A stretch of 64,000 nt of DNA, from contig JAUIHI010000001.1 in NCBI GenBank assembly GCA_030432295.1, forward strand, positions 124,001 through 188,000. Direction: 5' to 3'. Positions 4,354 through 11,250 of the stretch are shown here, one piece after another (the stretch's first letter is position 1; each line of letters starts with the position of its first letter). The notes below the pieces were generated by a model. That model did no database searches. It had not been told where the DNA came from and worked only from the letters and a program-made list of their open reading frames with translations. Source of the DNA: Anaerolineae bacterium (lineage in GTDB: Bacteria > Chloroflexota > Anaerolineae > Caldilineales > Caldilineaceae). The translations under genes and the position numbers were made by a program.

Positions 4354-5937
4354 GTGAATCCAGTCTCGGCCTTTTTTGTTCGCAATATTATTGTCGTCTT
4401 TTTCTTCTACGGTCTTGCCTTCTTCGTACTGGGCCTGGCGTTGTTGTTGGCTGCCCGCCGCCAATCTGAATATCATTTTGCCAGCGCCATCCGCCCCCTG
4501 GCCGCCTTTGGCTTTCTCCACGCTCTGCACGAATGGTATGAAATGTACCAGAAATACGCGGCCCTGACTGGCGGTTACTCGCCCACCCCCGGCGAGGAGA
4601 GCCTGCGCCTGTCGGTTCTCGTCGCATCTTTTGTCTGCCTGCTCGTCTTTGGCATTACACTGCTGAACCCGGGCAAGGGGAATGGCTGGCGGGTCTATCC
4701 AGCCATCGGCGGGATGCTGGGGTTGTGGGCGGTGAGCCTGGCCGCGGTCAATATTCGCTTTGCCCCACCGGCAGAAGAGCTTCTTGCCGTGGGGGATGCG
4801 TTGGCCCGCTACAGCCTGGGCATTCCCGGCGCGGCCCTGGGTGCCTGGGCGCTGATGACCCAACAGCGCACCTTTCGCGCCCACAATCTGCCACAGTTTG
4901 GCCAGGATTTGGTCTGGTGTGCGGCGGCTCTGTTGCTCTACGGCGTCGTCGGTCAAATCTTTGTGCGTCCCACACTGCTGGTCTCCAGCCAGCTTCTCAG
5001 CAGCACCAATTTTCTCCAGTGGTTTGGCATTCCCGTACAACTTTTTCGGGCGGCAATGGCTGGGGTGTTGGCCTTTTATATGGCCCGTGCCCTGCGCGCG
5101 TTTGAGGTGGAAAGCCAGCGGCGGCTGGAGGAGGCACTCCTGGCCGAACGTCGCACGGGCCAGGAGCGGGAACGGCTCAATGCGGAGTTACAGCACGAGC
5201 AAAAAGTGCTGGCCGAACTGCTGGACCGGCTGGTGGATACCCAGGAAGTGGAACGCCAGCGCATCGCCCGGGAACTCCACGACGCCACCGGCCAATCGCT
5301 TACGGCTATCTCTCTGGGGCTGCGGGGTGTGCAGCGGGTTTTGGAAGACAGGGATGCCACGACCGTAGGCCAGTTGCGCGAGTTGGAATCCTTCAGCACT
5401 GGCGCGCTGGGCGAATTACGTCGGATTATCGCGGATTTGCGTCCCCATCAATTGGACGATCTGGGGCTGATTCCGGCCCTGCGCTGGTATACCCAAAGCT
5501 TCCAGGCCCGCCGGGGAATTGCCTGCGAATTTCAACTGGTGGGCGAGGCGGTCCGTCTGCCGCCGGAGACAGAAACGGTCATCTTCCGCATCGTCCAGGA
5601 GGCATTGACGAATGTGGCCCGCCATGCCCAGGCCCAGCGCACGACGGTCTGCCTGGAGAACCAGCCCGACGGGGTGGTGGTGATGGTCAAGGATGACGGC
5701 CAGGGCTTCGACACCGCCGCGTTGGGCCACCGCCAGCAGACCCGCAGCGGTTGGGGGCTGCTGGGCATTCGGGAGCGGGCGCGGCTGTTGGGCGGGCGCT
5801 GCGCCATCGAATCGTCGCCGGGCCAGGGCACGCAGGTGCGGGTCTGGATTCCGCTGTCAGATGGCGCGTCTGGCGAAACTGACGAAAATAAGAATCGGAA
5901 CGCAGATTCCACTGAGGACGCAGATTCCGCAGATTGA
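4354..5937 (+). CDS. Membrane sensor histidine kinase, NarX/LiaS (HPK7) class
   Basis: A 527-residue kinase starting at GTG 4354, eight bases after an AGAGGG ribosome-binding site. The first 250 residues hold about seven hydrophobic segments and no extracytoplasmic sensor domain, suggesting membrane-embedded sensing. A coiled coil (about 255-300) leads to a HisKA_3 dimerisation domain with phospho-acceptor His309 in RIARELHDATGQ. A HATPase domain follows, with N box EALTNVARHA and G box DDGQGFD. The response regulator gene begins 73 bases downstream. The pair sits directly upstream of two cytochrome operons and probably controls them in response to a respiratory or redox signal. Confidence 0.9.
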   Translation: MNPVSAFFVRNIIVVFFFYGLAFFVLGLALLLAARRQSEYHFASAIRPLAAFGFLHALHEWYEMYQKYAALTGGYSPTPGEESLRLSVLVASFVCLLVFGITLLNPGKGNGWRVYPAIGGMLGLWAVSLAAVNIRFAPPAEELLAVGDALARYSLGIPGAALGAWALMTQQRTFRAHNLPQFGQDLVWCAAALLLYGVVGQIFVRPTLLVSSQLLSSTNFLQWFGIPVQLFRAAMAGVLAFYMARALRAFEVESQRRLEEALLAERRTGQERERLNAELQHEQKVLAELLDRLVDTQEVERQRIARELHDATGQSLTAISLGLRGVQRVLEDRDATTVGQLRELESFSTGALGELRRIIADLRPHQLDDLGLIPALRWYTQSFQARRGIACEFQLVGEAVRLPPETETVIFRIVQEALTNVARHAQAQRTTVCLENQPDGVVVMVKDDGQGFDTAALGHRQQTRSGWGLLGIRERARLLGGRCAIESSPGQGTQVRVWIPLSDGASGETDENKNRNADSTEDADSAD

Positions 5938-6010: not shown

Positions 6011-6667
6011 ATGTCCAAAATCCGGCTTCTGCTGGTTGACGATCACGAAATTGTGCGGGCCGGGCTGCGGATGCTCTTCCTGGCCGAGCCGGATATGGAG
6101 ATTGTGGGGGAGGCGGGTGGCGGCGCAGATGCCATCCGCGCGGTGGCGGACCTGCACCCGGATGTGGTGCTGATGGATGTGGCCATGCCCGGTATGAATG
6201 GCATTGAAGCCACCCGGCGCATCAAAGAGGCCAACCCGGAGACGGCGATTCTGGCCCTGACGATGTACGAGGACGAGCAATACTTTTTCGAGATGCTCAA
6301 TGCCGGCGCGTCGGGCTACATTCCCAAAAGGGCCGCACCGGACGATCTGGTCTCGGCCATCCGGGTGGTGAGCCAGGGCAATGTCTTTCTCTATGCATCC
6401 CTGGCCCGCTTTCTGCTCAACGAAGTGCTGCCCACCCACGATGCCAAGGCCGGAGATTCCCTCACAGAGGAGTTGACGCCCAGGGAACGGGAGGTGCTCA
6501 CCCACATTGCCGAGGGCAAAACCAACCGGGAGATTGCGGATGTGCTGATCATCAGCCCCAAAACTGTGGACCGCCACCGGGAGAATATTATGCAGAAGCT
6601 CAATCTGCACAGCCGGGTGGAACTGGTGAAGTATGCGATTTCCAGAGGGTTGATTCGGGTGGAGTAA
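6011..6667 (+). CDS. NarL/LuxR-family response regulator
   Basis: A 218-residue two-domain regulator. The receiver domain (1-120) has acidic pocket Asp10-Asp11, phospho-acceptor Asp56 in LMDVAMPG and Lys in YIPKRA. The LuxR-type helix-turn-helix (about 150-210) has LTPREREVL and the recognition segment SPKTVDRHRENIMQKL. ATG 6011 is chosen because an AGAGGCAAAA site precedes it and the receiver fold starts there; the frame stays open upstream but encodes no domain. It is the cognate partner of the preceding kinase and the likely regulator of the neighbouring cytochrome genes. Confidence 0.92.
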   Translation: MSKIRLLLVDDHEIVRAGLRMLFLAEPDMEIVGEAGGGADAIRAVADLHPDVVLMDVAMPGMNGIEATRRIKEANPETAILALTMYEDEQYFFEMLNAGASGYIPKRAAPDDLVSAIRVVSQGNVFLYASLARFLLNEVLPTHDAKAGDSLTEELTPREREVLTHIAEGKTNREIADVLIISPKTVDRHRENIMQKLNLHSRVELVKYAISRGLIRVE

Positions 6668-6885: not shown

Positions 6886-7077
6886 ATGGGCGGCTTCTAC
6901 ACAGCAATGGTAGTTCTGGGCTTCTTCGTTCTGCGTCTCGGTGTGCCTATTCTGATCACCGCAACCGTCTGTTATGGATTGCGCCGATTGGATGCACGCT
7001 GGCAGGCAGAGGCAGAAGCGATGAATGGAAACCGGCAGGAGGTAGCAGTTGTCAATAGCGGGGCCAGAAGGGGCTGA
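6886..7077 (+). CDS. Mini membrane protein heading the octahaem cytochrome operon
   Basis: A 63-residue protein with one hydrophobic segment (about residues 5-28) and a basic, soluble tail. An AAAGGAGAG ribosome-binding site lies 6 bases before ATG 6886. The motif FYT-x5-F-x2-LRLGVPIL is shared with the 43-residue protein at 11119-11250 on the opposite strand: 10 of 20 aligned residues are identical. Both genes stand first in a multihaem cytochrome operon. The downstream cytochrome start lies inside this gene (29-base overlap), implying translational coupling. The function is unknown; a small subunit or assembly factor of the cytochrome complex is the obvious idea. Confidence 0.75.
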   Translation: MGGFYTAMVVLGFFVLRLGVPILITATVCYGLRRLDARWQAEAEAMNGNRQEVAVVNSGARRG

Positions 7078-7855
7078 AAAGGAATTCACTGACATCCAAC
7101 AGACAACAGGCACAGGATGGCAGGCCAAGAGCCAGTGGATTGCACTGGCTCTATCGGGCTGCCTTGTGGCATTTTCTCTGGGGCTGACGCTGCTCTGGCC
7201 TGCGTCCGCGCCCTCTTTGGCCGCGCCCGAATCCCTCTCTGTGGCTGCCAGTGCGGAAGGCTACGAGAGTCCTCAACGCTGCCGGGAATGTCACGAAGAA
7301 ATCTATCAGGCGTGGACCCACACCAGCCACGCCAACGCCCTCTTTGATCCAATCGTGCGCACGTATATGCAGACGATTGAGGAGCCGGGGGAGTGTTTCG
7401 CCTGTCACACCACCGGCTACAATACCAACAGCGGGCAGTTTATTCTGGCTGGTGTCACCTGCGAAGCCTGCCACGGCCCCTATCGCTCGGAACACCCGGA
7501 CGAAAGTATGGCGATTGCCACGTCCCCGGATTTTTGTGGCAGTTGCCACCCATCCACCCACAGCGAATGGGAGAGCAGTCGCCACGGCCAGGTCGGCGTC
7601 CTCTGTATCGACTGCCACGAAGTCCACACCCAGACCACCTACACCGAGACTGTGGAGCAAGTGCTCTGCGCTCGCTGTCACCAGGCCGACACCCAGAACG
7701 AGGTCCACCAGCAGCACGCAGACGCAGAAATTCATTGTATCGACTGCCATCTGGACCGCTCTCATCGGACAATCCCCATCAACGGCGAGAAAGCCACCGG
7801 CCACTCCTTCGCTGCTACCGGTGGAAATTGCACTATGTGTCATCTGGACCAGTAG
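7049..7855 (+). CDS. Octahaem c-type cytochrome, membrane-anchored (cytochrome c554-like)
   Basis: The 268-residue protein starts at TTG 7049, five bases after a GGAGGT site within the preceding gene. An N-terminal hydrophobic segment (about 28-50) is an uncleaved anchor or signal peptide. The exported part has eight CXXCH motifs: CRECH, CFACH, CEACH, CGSCH, CIDCH, CARCH, CIDCH and CTMCH. It resembles cytochrome c554/NapC-NrfB-type electron carriers. At this size it is more likely a transfer protein than an octahaem reductase. Convergent genes encode a heptahaem cytochrome and a quinol-oxidising module that could feed it electrons. Confidence 0.9.
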   Translation: MSIAGPEGAEKEFTDIQQTTGTGWQAKSQWIALALSGCLVAFSLGLTLLWPASAPSLAAPESLSVAASAEGYESPQRCRECHEEIYQAWTHTSHANALFDPIVRTYMQTIEEPGECFACHTTGYNTNSGQFILAGVTCEACHGPYRSEHPDESMAIATSPDFCGSCHPSTHSEWESSRHGQVGVLCIDCHEVHTQTTYTETVEQVLCARCHQADTQNEVHQQHADAEIHCIDCHLDRSHRTIPINGEKATGHSFAATGGNCTMCHLDQ

Positions 7856-7918
7856 TGTGGCAGCCCGCTCTTCCAACCGAAACGTGAAACGAGAAAGCAA
7901 CTGTACAGGCAGACAGCC

Positions 7919-7999
7919 AAAGTCCCCGGTACTTCACGTCCAACAGGGGTGTAATGGTTACGCACCTGCTGGCTGGTAAAGAAAGTGCTGGGGACTTTT
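7919..7999. repeat. Paired GGGGACTT inverted repeat after the octahaem gene
   Basis: AAAGTCCCCGGTACTT at 7919 and AAGTGCTGGGGACTTT ending near 7998 are complementary, about 50 bases apart, with a T-run after the right arm. It may terminate the + strand operon. Similar pairs lie at 4053-4124 and 11444-11525, i.e. in the three gaps around the two-component/cytochrome cluster. Confidence 0.55.
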
Positions 8000-8007
8000 T
8001 TATACAG

Positions 8008-8057
8008 TGAAAGATGAAAGGTGAGATCGCCCGGGCGATCTCACCTTTCATCTTTCA
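8008..8057. terminator. 50-bp perfect palindrome between convergent cytochrome operons
   Basis: Bases 8008-8057 are self-complementary without a mismatch and with no loop, centred between 8032 and 8033 (CGCCCGGGCG core). The site lies between the + strand octahaem gene and the - strand NrfD-like gene, where a bidirectional terminator is expected. Confidence 0.8.
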
Positions 8058-8087
8058 GTACTCACTTTTACTCTTCACCTCTGCGAT

Positions 8088-9251
8088 TCAGTGCTGCTCA
8101 TACCCCAACTTCACAGCACTCCCCATCACAAAACGCACGGCCAGATACCAGAGGAGCATCCCGGCGGCGACGATGCCCAGGGTGGAGAACCACTCCAGCA
8201 GGCTGGGCGAGTAGAACGCGCTGGTGGGGGCCGATTGGGCGGCCAGGGTCGCATTGAAGCGATTCATCCCCACGCCGAGAAGAGCGGACAGCGGGGCGAC
8301 CCAATGCACCCAGGGCTGGCGACGCAGTGAAGGCGTGGCCCACAGTACAATCGGAATCAGTGAGCAGAAGAGAATCTCACCCAGCCAGAGGCGGTTGAGG
8401 GGCGTCCACGTCAGGAGCAGGGGCAGCTCGCCTGCGTAGATCACCTCGCCCACCCGGATGAGCAAATAGAGCAGTGCGACGGCGACGATCCCTTTGCCCA
8501 GACCGATGGCAATGGCCGGATTTTCCTTTTGGCCGCGCACAGCCATTGCGATTTTGTAGGCAATGATGCCCAGGCTCAACCCGGCCAGAATGGAGGATAT
8601 GTAGAAGAGCACCGGCAGAATTGGGGTGTACCAGAGGGGGTGCAGCCGGTGGGGCATATTGAGATAGAGCGTCCCCAGGGTGGACTGGTGCAGGGTGGAA
8701 AGGGTGATGCCGATGATTGTCACCGGTGTCATCAGGCGGTAGACCAGGCGCAGGGGCCACTTCCAGGGCAGATTGGCGAGCAGGTCCGGGCTTACTTCCA
8801 GCACCAGCACAGTTGTGTAGAGCAGCACACACCAGCAGATTTCAAAGAGAGGCGAGTGCATATTGTAGAAAAGTAGAAAGTTGTAGAAGCGGTCAGGTCG
8901 GCCCAGGTCCAGGAGCAGTAACATCAGCACAGCCACATAGCCGAACAGGCCAGCCAGAATGGAGGGCCGCAACAGCGGTTGGAACTGGTGCAGATGGAGG
9001 ATATGCACCACCGCTGCTATCGTAAAACCGACACCCGAAAATGCAATCAGGGCAAAATCGAAGCCGATCCAAATGCCCCAGGGATAGGCGTCGGTCAGGG
9101 ATGTGGTGGCTCCCATCCCCGCGAAGAGCCGTCCCACACCCGCAGCCAGACCGATGAGTACCAGAAAGCCCAGCAGCCCGGCGATGATATCGCCCTTGCG
9201 AAAGGGACCGATCTGCCATTCCTGGCGAAGAGAAGGGGCGTGTACGGTCAT
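8088..9251 (-). CDS. NrfD/PsrC/HybB-family quinone-interacting membrane subunit
   Basis: A 387-residue protein with about ten membrane helices and no cofactor motifs, as in NrfD, PsrC, HybB and ActC. Family features include the early segment AYPWGIWIGFDF and DLGRPDRFYNFLLFYN between helices. These proteins bind quinol in the membrane and pass electrons to a periplasmic FeS subunit. Its ATG overlaps the stop of the FeS gene by four bases (ATGA), so the two are translationally coupled. It is last in the - strand operon. Confidence 0.9.
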   Translation of the reverse strand: MTVHAPSLRQEWQIGPFRKGDIIAGLLGFLVLIGLAAGVGRLFAGMGATTSLTDAYPWGIWIGFDFALIAFSGVGFTIAAVVHILHLHQFQPLLRPSILAGLFGYVAVLMLLLLDLGRPDRFYNFLLFYNMHSPLFEICWCVLLYTTVLVLEVSPDLLANLPWKWPLRLVYRLMTPVTIIGITLSTLHQSTLGTLYLNMPHRLHPLWYTPILPVLFYISSILAGLSLGIIAYKIAMAVRGQKENPAIAIGLGKGIVAVALLYLLIRVGEVIYAGELPLLLTWTPLNRLWLGEILFCSLIPIVLWATPSLRRQPWVHWVAPLSALLGVGMNRFNATLAAQSAPTSAFYSPSLLEWFSTLGIVAAGMLLWYLAVRFVMGSAVKLGYEQH

Positions 9252-10177
9252 AATTCATCTCCCGGTTTCTGGCTGGTAATGTGGACAGTGGCCTCGCCGT
9301 TGACCTGCTGCCGTCGTTGCATAAAGAGATGGAGGGCGGTGACCACCGACGCCACAGTCAGCGCGATGGCGGGCGTCTGCTTCATCACCGCTTCGGCGTA
9401 GCGGGGATTGGGTTCGTCGCCCAATTCTGGGAAGCCCAAGAAGGAGAAGGGCACGGGCGAGAGATAGAGCACCGACGTGCCGCCCACTTCGTATTCGCCA
9501 TAGACCTTATCCACATAGCGGCCCGGATTGGAGGTGATTTGGGCGTGGGCCTGGGCCAGCAATTGCTTGCGGTTGCCAAAACGCAGCGCCCCATTCGGGC
9601 AGGCCGCCACACAGGCGGGAGACTCGCCCTCGGCCAGGCGGTCGGCACACATCTGACATTTGTGGATCAACCCCAGGGGGTTCTCCCATTCGTAGGCGGG
9701 CACGCCAAAGGGACAGGCGTACTGACAGTAGCGGCAGCCGATACATTTGTCGGCGTCGTAGACCACTGGCCCTTCGGGGGTCTTGCGCAGGGCACCGACT
9801 GTGCAGGCCGACACACAGGCCGGATGCAGACAGTTCATGCACTGGTGTTTGACGTATACACTCTCGGTTTGGCCCACACTGTTCTCGATCTGTTTTTCCT
9901 CTACAAAGCTGTACGCATCCGTGTCCAGCCCGATGGGCGTCTGATTGGGGTTTGGCCGATCGTTGGTCTCCTTGCAGGCCAGGGCGCAGGATTGACAACC
10001 GGTGCAGCGGGTCAGGTCGATGAGAATGCCCCAGGCACTGTCGCTCTCCTCGCCATCGCTGGCGTGGGCCAATTCGGGGTGAGCGACCATTGCGCTGGAG
10101 AGCATCAGCGCAGCGACGCCACAGCCCATTCCTTTGATCAGGTCACGCCGGGAAAGTTCGCTCTGTGTGGTAGTCAT
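9248..10177 (-). CDS. Tat-exported four-cluster ferredoxin-like subunit (HybA/NrfC type)
   Basis: The 309-residue protein begins with a twin-arginine signal (SRRDLIKGMG plus hydrophobic stretch, about residues 8-35). It has four cysteine groups for [4Fe-4S] clusters, beginning CTGCQSCALAC, CMNCLHPAC, CIGCRYCQYAC and CQMC. A C-terminal hydrophobic helix (about 280-300) could anchor it, as in HybA. It would relay electrons between the NrfD-like subunit and the heptahaem cytochrome. The start at 10177 is fixed by an AAGGAGGAG site and a TAATG overlap with the upstream gene. Confidence 0.92.
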   Translation of the reverse strand: MTTTQSELSRRDLIKGMGCGVAALMLSSAMVAHPELAHASDGEESDSAWGILIDLTRCTGCQSCALACKETNDRPNPNQTPIGLDTDAYSFVEEKQIENSVGQTESVYVKHQCMNCLHPACVSACTVGALRKTPEGPVVYDADKCIGCRYCQYACPFGVPAYEWENPLGLIHKCQMCADRLAEGESPACVAACPNGALRFGNRKQLLAQAHAQITSNPGRYVDKVYGEYEVGGTSVLYLSPVPFSFLGFPELGDEPNPRYAEAVMKQTPAIALTVASVVTALHLFMQRRQQVNGEATVHITSQKPGDEL

Positions 10178-11070
10178 TATTCTCCTCCTTTGCGGCCATA
10201 GCGGGCCACAAAGAGCATAAAGATGATCCCCAGAATGCCGCCGATGCCGATGCCAAAGCCCAGATTGAGGGGAGTCAATACCTGCAAAGATTTGGTCGTT
10301 TGCTGGGCAGATGCGAGACGGGCGTCGAGTTCGTTGGCCCGCTGCTGTTCGTCGTGCAGTTGCGTCAGGGCCAACTGTTGCACGTCCAGCCGTTCGGCGG
10401 GATTTGTCACGCTTTCCCGATGGCAGTCCAAACATTTGGCCGATGAGACGGTCGTGAAGTCGTGGATGGGGGCGGTAATGTTGGCCTGGTTGCCCACCAT
10501 CACCATCTCGCCGGAAATTGTCGTCGGAGACATATGGCAATCGGTGCAGGCTGCATCCACATACCAATGGGCCGAGTGGAAGCTGTCGGAGAGAGATTCC
10601 GTGTGACAGGCGCTGCACAGTTGATCGTCGGTCAGCCGCAGGTCCTGGGAGTGGACCTGATGGCAGCCGATGCACTGCACATTCTGGCTGGCGTGGATGG
10701 AATGTTCCCACTGGTCGTAGGTGGCTTCGTGGCACTCCTGGCAGATCGCGGAATCGACAGTCAGGAGTTCCATCGCCCCGTCTTCCGGGTGGCCTTTGCT
10801 GTACTCGCCGTGACAGGCGGCACAGGTGGCTCCGGTTGTCCCCGCTGTATCGCCCATCTCCACCGCGTGGGCGGAATTGAGCCAGGCGTCGGTTTCGGCG
10901 GAGTGGCAAGAGGCGCAGGGGTCTGCACCGGTTGGGTTCTCCTCATCTGCATACGCAGTAGTGCCGTTGCTCAACAGCAGCAGCGCTGCGATGCTGAACA
11001 GAAGAGCGATGCTCAGGAGACCCCAGCGCTGTCTCTGTGTGGAAATTCGTTGTGTGGATAGGGGTAACAT
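10177..11070 (-). CDS. Heptahaem c-type cytochrome with C-terminal membrane anchor
   Basis: A 297-residue protein with an N-terminal signal peptide (hydrophobic about 16-40) and seven CXXCH motifs between about 50 and 215: CASCH, CAACH, CQECH, CIGCH, CSACH, CTDCH and CLDCH. A charged helical spacer rich in Gln/Glu (about 225-260) precedes a glycine-rich transmembrane helix near the C-terminus. It is the first large gene of a three-gene set with the FeS and NrfD subunits, which resembles the electron-transfer half of Nrf/Qrc-type complexes. No molybdopterin or NrfA-like catalytic subunit is present. Confidence 0.9.
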   Translation of the reverse strand: MLPLSTQRISTQRQRWGLLSIALLFSIAALLLLSNGTTAYADEENPTGADPCASCHSAETDAWLNSAHAVEMGDTAGTTGATCAACHGEYSKGHPEDGAMELLTVDSAICQECHEATYDQWEHSIHASQNVQCIGCHQVHSQDLRLTDDQLCSACHTESLSDSFHSAHWYVDAACTDCHMSPTTISGEMVMVGNQANITAPIHDFTTVSSAKCLDCHRESVTNPAERLDVQQLALTQLHDEQQRANELDARLASAQQTTKSLQVLTPLNLGFGIGIGGILGIIFMLFVARYGRKGGE

Positions 11071-11118
11071 TTTGTCCTCACCTCTTATTATCTGGCTGGG
11101 AGAGTATCCGTATTCCGG

Positions 11119-11250
11119 TCAGGATTGCAGATGCAGCAACCGGCTGTTGACTGTCTTGCCCACCCACATCAGGAGTAGAGGAATGCCGAAACGCAGGGTT
11201 GTGAAGGTCAATAGAATCAAAATTGTGTAGAAGAGGTCTTGGATTGTCAT
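11119..11250 (-). CDS. 43-residue mini membrane protein heading the heptahaem operon
   Basis: The frame from ATG 11250 to 11119 encodes 43 residues, almost all one hydrophobic helix, with the motif FYTILILLTFTTLRFGIPLL. An AAAGGAGT ribosome-binding site lies 7 bases upstream. It matches the protein at 6886-7077 in FYT, LR, G, P and the spacing between them. The open frame upstream of this ATG is not supported by a ribosome-binding site. Its conserved place ahead of a multihaem cytochrome suggests a functional link such as a small subunit, quinone-site partner or assembly factor; nothing in the sequence proves which. Confidence 0.7.
   Translation of the reverse strand: MTIQDLFYTILILLTFTTLRFGIPLLLMWVGKTVNSRLLHLQS

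Follow-up and report, generated by a model that had tools for sequence, protein, structure and literature searches.

The window, which is the whole stretch of 64,000 nucleotides analysed here, comes from an Anaerolineae bacterium of the family Caldilineaceae and contains the following genes and features.

4354..5937, + strand: membrane histidine kinase (HisKA_3 and HATPase_c) whose N-terminal membrane domain is conserved and carries no Pfam name
6011..6667, + strand: NarL/LuxR-type response regulator, likely start ATG 6011
6886..7077, + strand: mini-protein type A, 63 aa, R-x3-P helix without the Cys domain, which the window genus has lost
7049..7855, + strand: octahaem c-type cytochrome, 8 CxxCH, likely start TTG 7049
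8014..8061, no strand: long, almost perfect palindrome separating the two convergent units, read by eye
8088..9251, - strand: NrfD/HybB/HmcC-type integral membrane quinone subunit
9248..10177, - strand: HmcB/HybA-type Fe-S protein (4Fe-4S) with a Tat signal and a C-terminal hydrophobic tail
10177..11070, - strand: heptahaem c-type cytochrome, 7 CxxCH, C-terminal membrane anchor
11119..11250, - strand: mini-protein type B, 43 aa, consisting of the R-x3-P helix alone

The neighbouring genes confirmed the arrangement described in the sequence-only reading, in which two convergent units, one for the octahaem cytochrome and the other for the heptahaem cytochrome, the Fe-S protein and NrfD, are each opened by a mini-gene. 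The ORFs of 63 and 43 residues were both found as that reading had given them, with strong, purine-rich ribosome-binding sites (AAAGGAGAGG for type A and AAAGGAG for type B). The type A protein (P0001; 6886-7077, +) begins MGGFYTAMVVLGFFVLRLGVPILITATVCYGLRRLDARWQAEAE and the type B protein (P0002; 11119-11250, -) is MTIQDLFYTILILLTFTTLRFGIPLLLMWVGKTVNSRLLHLQS. The reported identity of 10 of 20 residues between them was borne out by direct count, and these two are the only clear copies in their own genome. A longer regulator ORF from 5693 would run into the kinase gene. The likely octahaem gene start at TTG 7049 overlaps the end of the type A gene with GGAGG upstream, as read from the sequence, and this combination (window 7038-7077) suggests that octahaem translation is coupled to the mini-gene. 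The palindrome is probably a bidirectional terminator; it was absent from the output of a simple terminator scan.

Selection on the two small frames was estimated within the genus from the window together with genomes G001, G004 and G006. The dN/dS was 0.09-0.22 for the first 46 codons of type A and 0.28-0.36 for type B, and one very close type B pair gave 1.1 from 13 differences. Changes in type A within the genus fall mostly at third codon positions. Synonymous and non-synonymous changes are not equally frequent and dN/dS is well below 1, so the frames are coding. The frames are also conserved at related loci, with relatives found across many bacterial families. In a protein search (150 relatives), matches to P0001 had E-values down to 1e-26 within the genus, and proteins from other families of the class matched at 1e-10 to 1e-15.

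A single pairwise comparison of type A with type B in one genome was weak (E 0.28). None of 5000 shuffles reached the same score for the pair, also when the hydrophobic core alone was shuffled. An iterated profile search (40 fetched loci) recovered both window proteins by one profile, and alignment of the A and B profiles with hhalign gave a probability of 97.8-98 %, an E-value of about 1e-13 and a score of 53.5, compared with a top score of 19.2 in 200 permutations of the type B columns. On this profile evidence, types A and B are one homologous family. Chance or hydrophobic similarity is ruled out by the shuffles and column permutations.

Very short, hydrophobic proteins and a weak lone comparison would also be expected of leader peptides, chance ORFs or unrelated hydrophobic peptides. 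The dN/dS values, the profile homology with its permutation controls, the tens of relatives across families, the fusions to NrfD described below, the variable place in the locus and the zero matches obtained on reversed DNA all stand against such an origin, which we regard as barely credible and which is refuted as far as sequence can do so. Leader peptides are ruled out by gene position, since the genes lie either before the cytochrome or after NrfD (type A in L080, L083, L084, L134, L135 and L137).

About 100 distinct relatives were found, all in Chloroflexota and in the class Anaerolineae wherever the class was readable. When 85,000 species genomes were scanned with type A patterns, which are narrow and set no outer bound on the range of the family, 24 loci emerged, all named Chloroflexota or Chloroflexi and assigned, where class or order was given, to Caldilineales, Ardenticatenales, Anaerolineales and kin; two of them are MAGs of Litorilinea aerophila, a cultured relative, whose contigs are those of genus members G004 and G006, and MAGs of its genus-level group have both mini-genes. 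Beyond the class, matches in the phylum sample fell mostly on the Cys-domain portion of the profile. The family had no match in Pfam, NCBIfam or PDB, which together with its conservation at related loci supports the earlier view of it as unnamed and easily missed.

Across alignments of 27 type A and 19 type B sequences, the only invariant residues were the Arg and Pro of R-x3-P, plus the start Met of type B. The FYT element of the motif first proposed is variable already within the genus (FYA, LLF, LFF, LLI), and the true signature is R-x3-P within the helix.

With about 40 residues, type B is no more than a transmembrane helix. Type A has the same helix followed by RLDARWxAEAE, to which most members add a six-Cys 'CW' domain with the usual spacing CW-x4-C-x7-C-x9-CW-x13-C-x2-C. 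Because most type A relatives are 95-170 aa long with this extra domain, the term 'mini' is fully true only of type B and a few type A lineages; likewise, the single helix of the original description is supported, but most type A members are not bare helices. The Cys domain is missing from the window genus, which has lost it, from a second lineage (L068, L148, L152, L155) and from L088/L090. The domain is likely to bind metal or Fe-S. It has no Pfam or NCBIfam name, and nothing was found in the literature under 'two-CW domain'. A histidine kinase (L116) likewise ends in a CW-type six-Cys domain, and short soluble proteins that stand alone (L115, L118, L119, L121) contain one as well.

The C-terminal side of the helix was the more positive in 26 of 27 type A and all 19 type B sequences, a charge bias of the N-out/C-in kind that would place the C-terminus, and hence the Cys domain, in the cytoplasm. 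An AlphaFold model of one type A protein had a long helix at residues 5-53, mostly at pLDDT above 90 and declining towards its C-terminus, and a Cys domain that is small and helical, at pLDDT of about 70-88. A structure search with this model found no similar solved structure.

To describe genomic context, neighbouring genes were counted for distinct members of each type. An Fe-S and NrfD module of the HmcB/HmcC or HybA/HybB type was adjoined by 46 of 47 type B and 46 of 56 type A genes, and a multihaem, Fe-S or NrfD gene by 51 of the 56 type A genes; type A was sampled partly by similarity to the query, and these frequencies describe this family rather than all small helices. Some loci were cut off by MAG contig ends. 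The usual neighbours of type A were genes for a histidine kinase and a NarL-type regulator. Two gene orders recurred, kinase-regulator-[B]-A-octahaem-FeS-NrfD as one unit and, as in the window, kinase-regulator-A-octahaem convergent with B-heptahaem-FeS-NrfD.

When HmcB-like Fe-S genes were taken as the starting point, 15 of 40 independently sampled loci had a mini-gene at the profile threshold, which rules out that the family accompanies every HmcB-like Fe-S gene. Where a 7-8 haem cytochrome lay beside Fe-S/NrfD, a mini-gene was present in 11 of 14 such loci, counting a below-threshold type B ORF in L215. On the Fe-S tree, mini-gene presence required 5 changes compared with a shuffled mean of 21.4, and none of 500 shuffles was as low.

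The two proteins had initially been proposed as partners of multihaem cytochromes. In five loci (L211, L217, L221, L236 and L143), the mini-genes were found with genes for Fe-S protein and fused NrfD and no multihaem gene in the stretch examined. This persistence indicates that the constant partner is the Fe-S/NrfD module, which, given also the fusions, is the best-supported partner in place of the cytochromes. In two closely related genomes (L223, L229) the complex was kept with no type B gene, so type B is not indispensable. In L221 (6122-13587), glpABC-like genes (anaerobic glycerol-3-phosphate dehydrogenase; by eye from protein starts) are followed by the mini-genes, Fe-S and fused NrfD.

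NrfD carries the helix as an in-frame N-terminal extension in at least three lineages, namely one supported clade (L069, L133, L213, L216, L224), a second group (L098, L143, L221, L236) and L156/L211. L069 and L133 yielded no free type B, and in L143 two family helices, both with R-x3-P, are joined to NrfD. An unusually long NrfD N-terminus holding extra helices was seen in L143 (8208-9779), L098 (3283-4836) and L236 (5768-7321). AlphaFold modelling of the L133 fusion recovered the ten-helix NrfD, with ACIII ActC as nearest solved fold; the extra helix was modelled at pLDDT 56-63 only, and its docking site on NrfD is thus putative.

The same loci bear on whether the mini-proteins might instead be CcmD-like helpers in maturation or assembly of multihaem cytochromes, acting outside the finished complex. 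Such a role would fit the 7-8 haem cytochromes in most loci and the frequent first place of both mini-genes in their unit. It is opposed by the five loci lacking a multihaem gene in the stretch examined, by a fusion partner that is NrfD and never a cytochrome or Ccm protein, and by the lack of a match of any member to a Pfam or NCBIfam family, and we consider it distinctly improbable.

The Fe-S protein of the window matched the NCBIfam models HmcB (5e-76) and HybA (7e-68), both below the curated cut-off, and its NrfD matched HmcC (2.7e-65) and HybB (1.8e-63), below the curated cut-off, and Pfam NrfD (2.5e-20); both proteins belong to an Hmc/Hyb-type Fe-S and NrfD module. Small hydrophobic proteins are known from related systems. 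The Desulfovibrio Hmc complex has HmcD, a 5.8 kDa hydrophobic peptide whose gene similarly accompanies those for a tail-anchored Fe-S protein of the HmcB type and an NrfD subunit of the HmcC type (PMC10924467, PMC10920352), a likeness in description. Hmc differs in its 16-haem cytochrome, HmcE and HmcF, and HmcD has no described Cys domain. The 16-haem HmcA, HmcE and HmcF were absent from both window units, which hold only 7- and 8-haem cytochromes and no further genes. In the NrfD-type complex ACIII, ActG is likewise a predicted single transmembrane helix without cofactors, found by mass fingerprinting and with no density (PMC5928083). ACIII contains ActB and two NrfD proteins (ActC/ActF), whereas the window units have an HmcB-type Fe-S protein and one NrfD, and the ACIII gene set (ActB-type subunit, ActC/ActF) was not found in them. 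A profile search of all PDB chains returned no ACIII chain up to E 10, though PDB may hold no ActG chain.

CydX and CcmD, with which the proteins were first compared, are also very small membrane proteins of one helix whose genes accompany those of respiratory proteins, but they have other partners, and the conserved R-x3-P belongs to the mini-proteins. The Pfam and NCBIfam libraries include CydX and CcmD models, and neither family was matched by the 27 type A (Pfam and NCBIfam) or the 19 type B sequences (NCBIfam). HmcD and ActG are therefore the nearer analogues in kind. The large window genes match a known three-gene module of tail-anchored Fe-S protein, HybB-like protein and octahaem cytochrome, for which no conserved flanking genes were reported (PMC10924467); the loci described here differ in having two conserved mini-genes, often together with a kinase/regulator pair.

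From the fusions and the analogy to HmcD and ActG, types A and B are read as NrfD-binding helices, and it is probable that they are paralogous accessory transmembrane subunits of an Hmc/Hyb-like quinone:cytochrome oxidoreductase that stabilize or tune NrfD. The complex would consist of the heptahaem cytochrome, the tail-anchored Fe-S protein and NrfD, probably joined by the octahaem cytochrome as another carrier, and would link the quinone pool to multihaem cytochromes of the periplasm by electron transfer. Each mini-protein is predicted to cross the membrane once, with the N-terminus outside and the C-terminus inside, and each helix, including that of the unfused proteins, would pack against the NrfD bundle with the mid-membrane Arg and the Pro one helical turn later as its contact face. 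An acidic partner within the helix core was present in none of 27 type A and 4 of 19 type B sequences; the invariant Arg combined with the lack of such a partner in type A cores suggests a salt bridge to another subunit, and to be neutralized the Arg would need an acidic group that lies beyond its own helix, probably on NrfD. Small transmembrane subunits of other respiratory complexes assemble, stabilize or tune them, and the likeliest job here would be to assemble or stabilize the NrfD module, or to tune its quinone or proton site.

Several observations count against reading type A as an NrfD subunit. Type A occurs without NrfD nearby in L073, L075, L077 and L085, and in some lineages it adjoins the kinase/regulator about as consistently as NrfD. 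Type A could instead serve mainly in signalling, as an input from the membrane to the adjacent kinase and NarL-type regulator or as their adaptor, with a Cys domain that senses redox state or metal and with no tie to the cytochromes other than co-regulation. A kinase lies within 4.5 kb of 35 of 56 distinct type A genes and a regulator within 2.5 kb of 32 of 56, the order kinase-regulator-A occurs without adjoining cytochrome-Fe-S-NrfD genes in L073 and L077, the kinase of L116 carries the CW-type domain at its C-terminus, and a Rex-like gene adjoins type A in L085. We nevertheless consider this unlikely, as type A shares one helix family with the NrfD-fused type B, as several lineages including that of the window have lost the Cys domain but kept the helix, and as type A in the same loci adjoins an octahaem, Fe-S or NrfD gene. 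Beside type A, a Rex-like gene (L085 423-1505) or an FmdE-like gene (L075 7900-9160) was seen instead of the respiratory module.

For type A as an accessory NrfD subunit, the cytoplasmic Cys-rich domain, which the window genus no longer has, may link the complex with the adjacent kinase/regulator pair. Only tentatively, and with low probability, would we extend this to a redox- or metal-sensing subunit, its helix on NrfD and its six-Cys domain reporting quinone or electron-flow status to the adjacent kinase; the complex would then regulate the genes that encode it.

The coupling mechanism of NrfD-type complexes, which make up a large class of quinone enzymes, has yet to be settled. The conserved pair of overlooked helices, A sometimes with a Cys domain and B sometimes fused to NrfD, means that the subunit lists and structural models of Anaerolineae NrfD complexes are probably incomplete. 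The R-x3-P motif and the natural fusions offer a means of testing where an accessory helix binds, and the link to a conserved kinase/regulator pair makes direct redox signalling from a respiratory complex a possibility. The kinases of the window (4354-5937) and of L068, L073, L088, L091, L211 and L212 share an N-terminal membrane domain (...FFFYGLAFF...HGxHEWxEM...), which had no Pfam match and is possibly an unnamed sensor domain.
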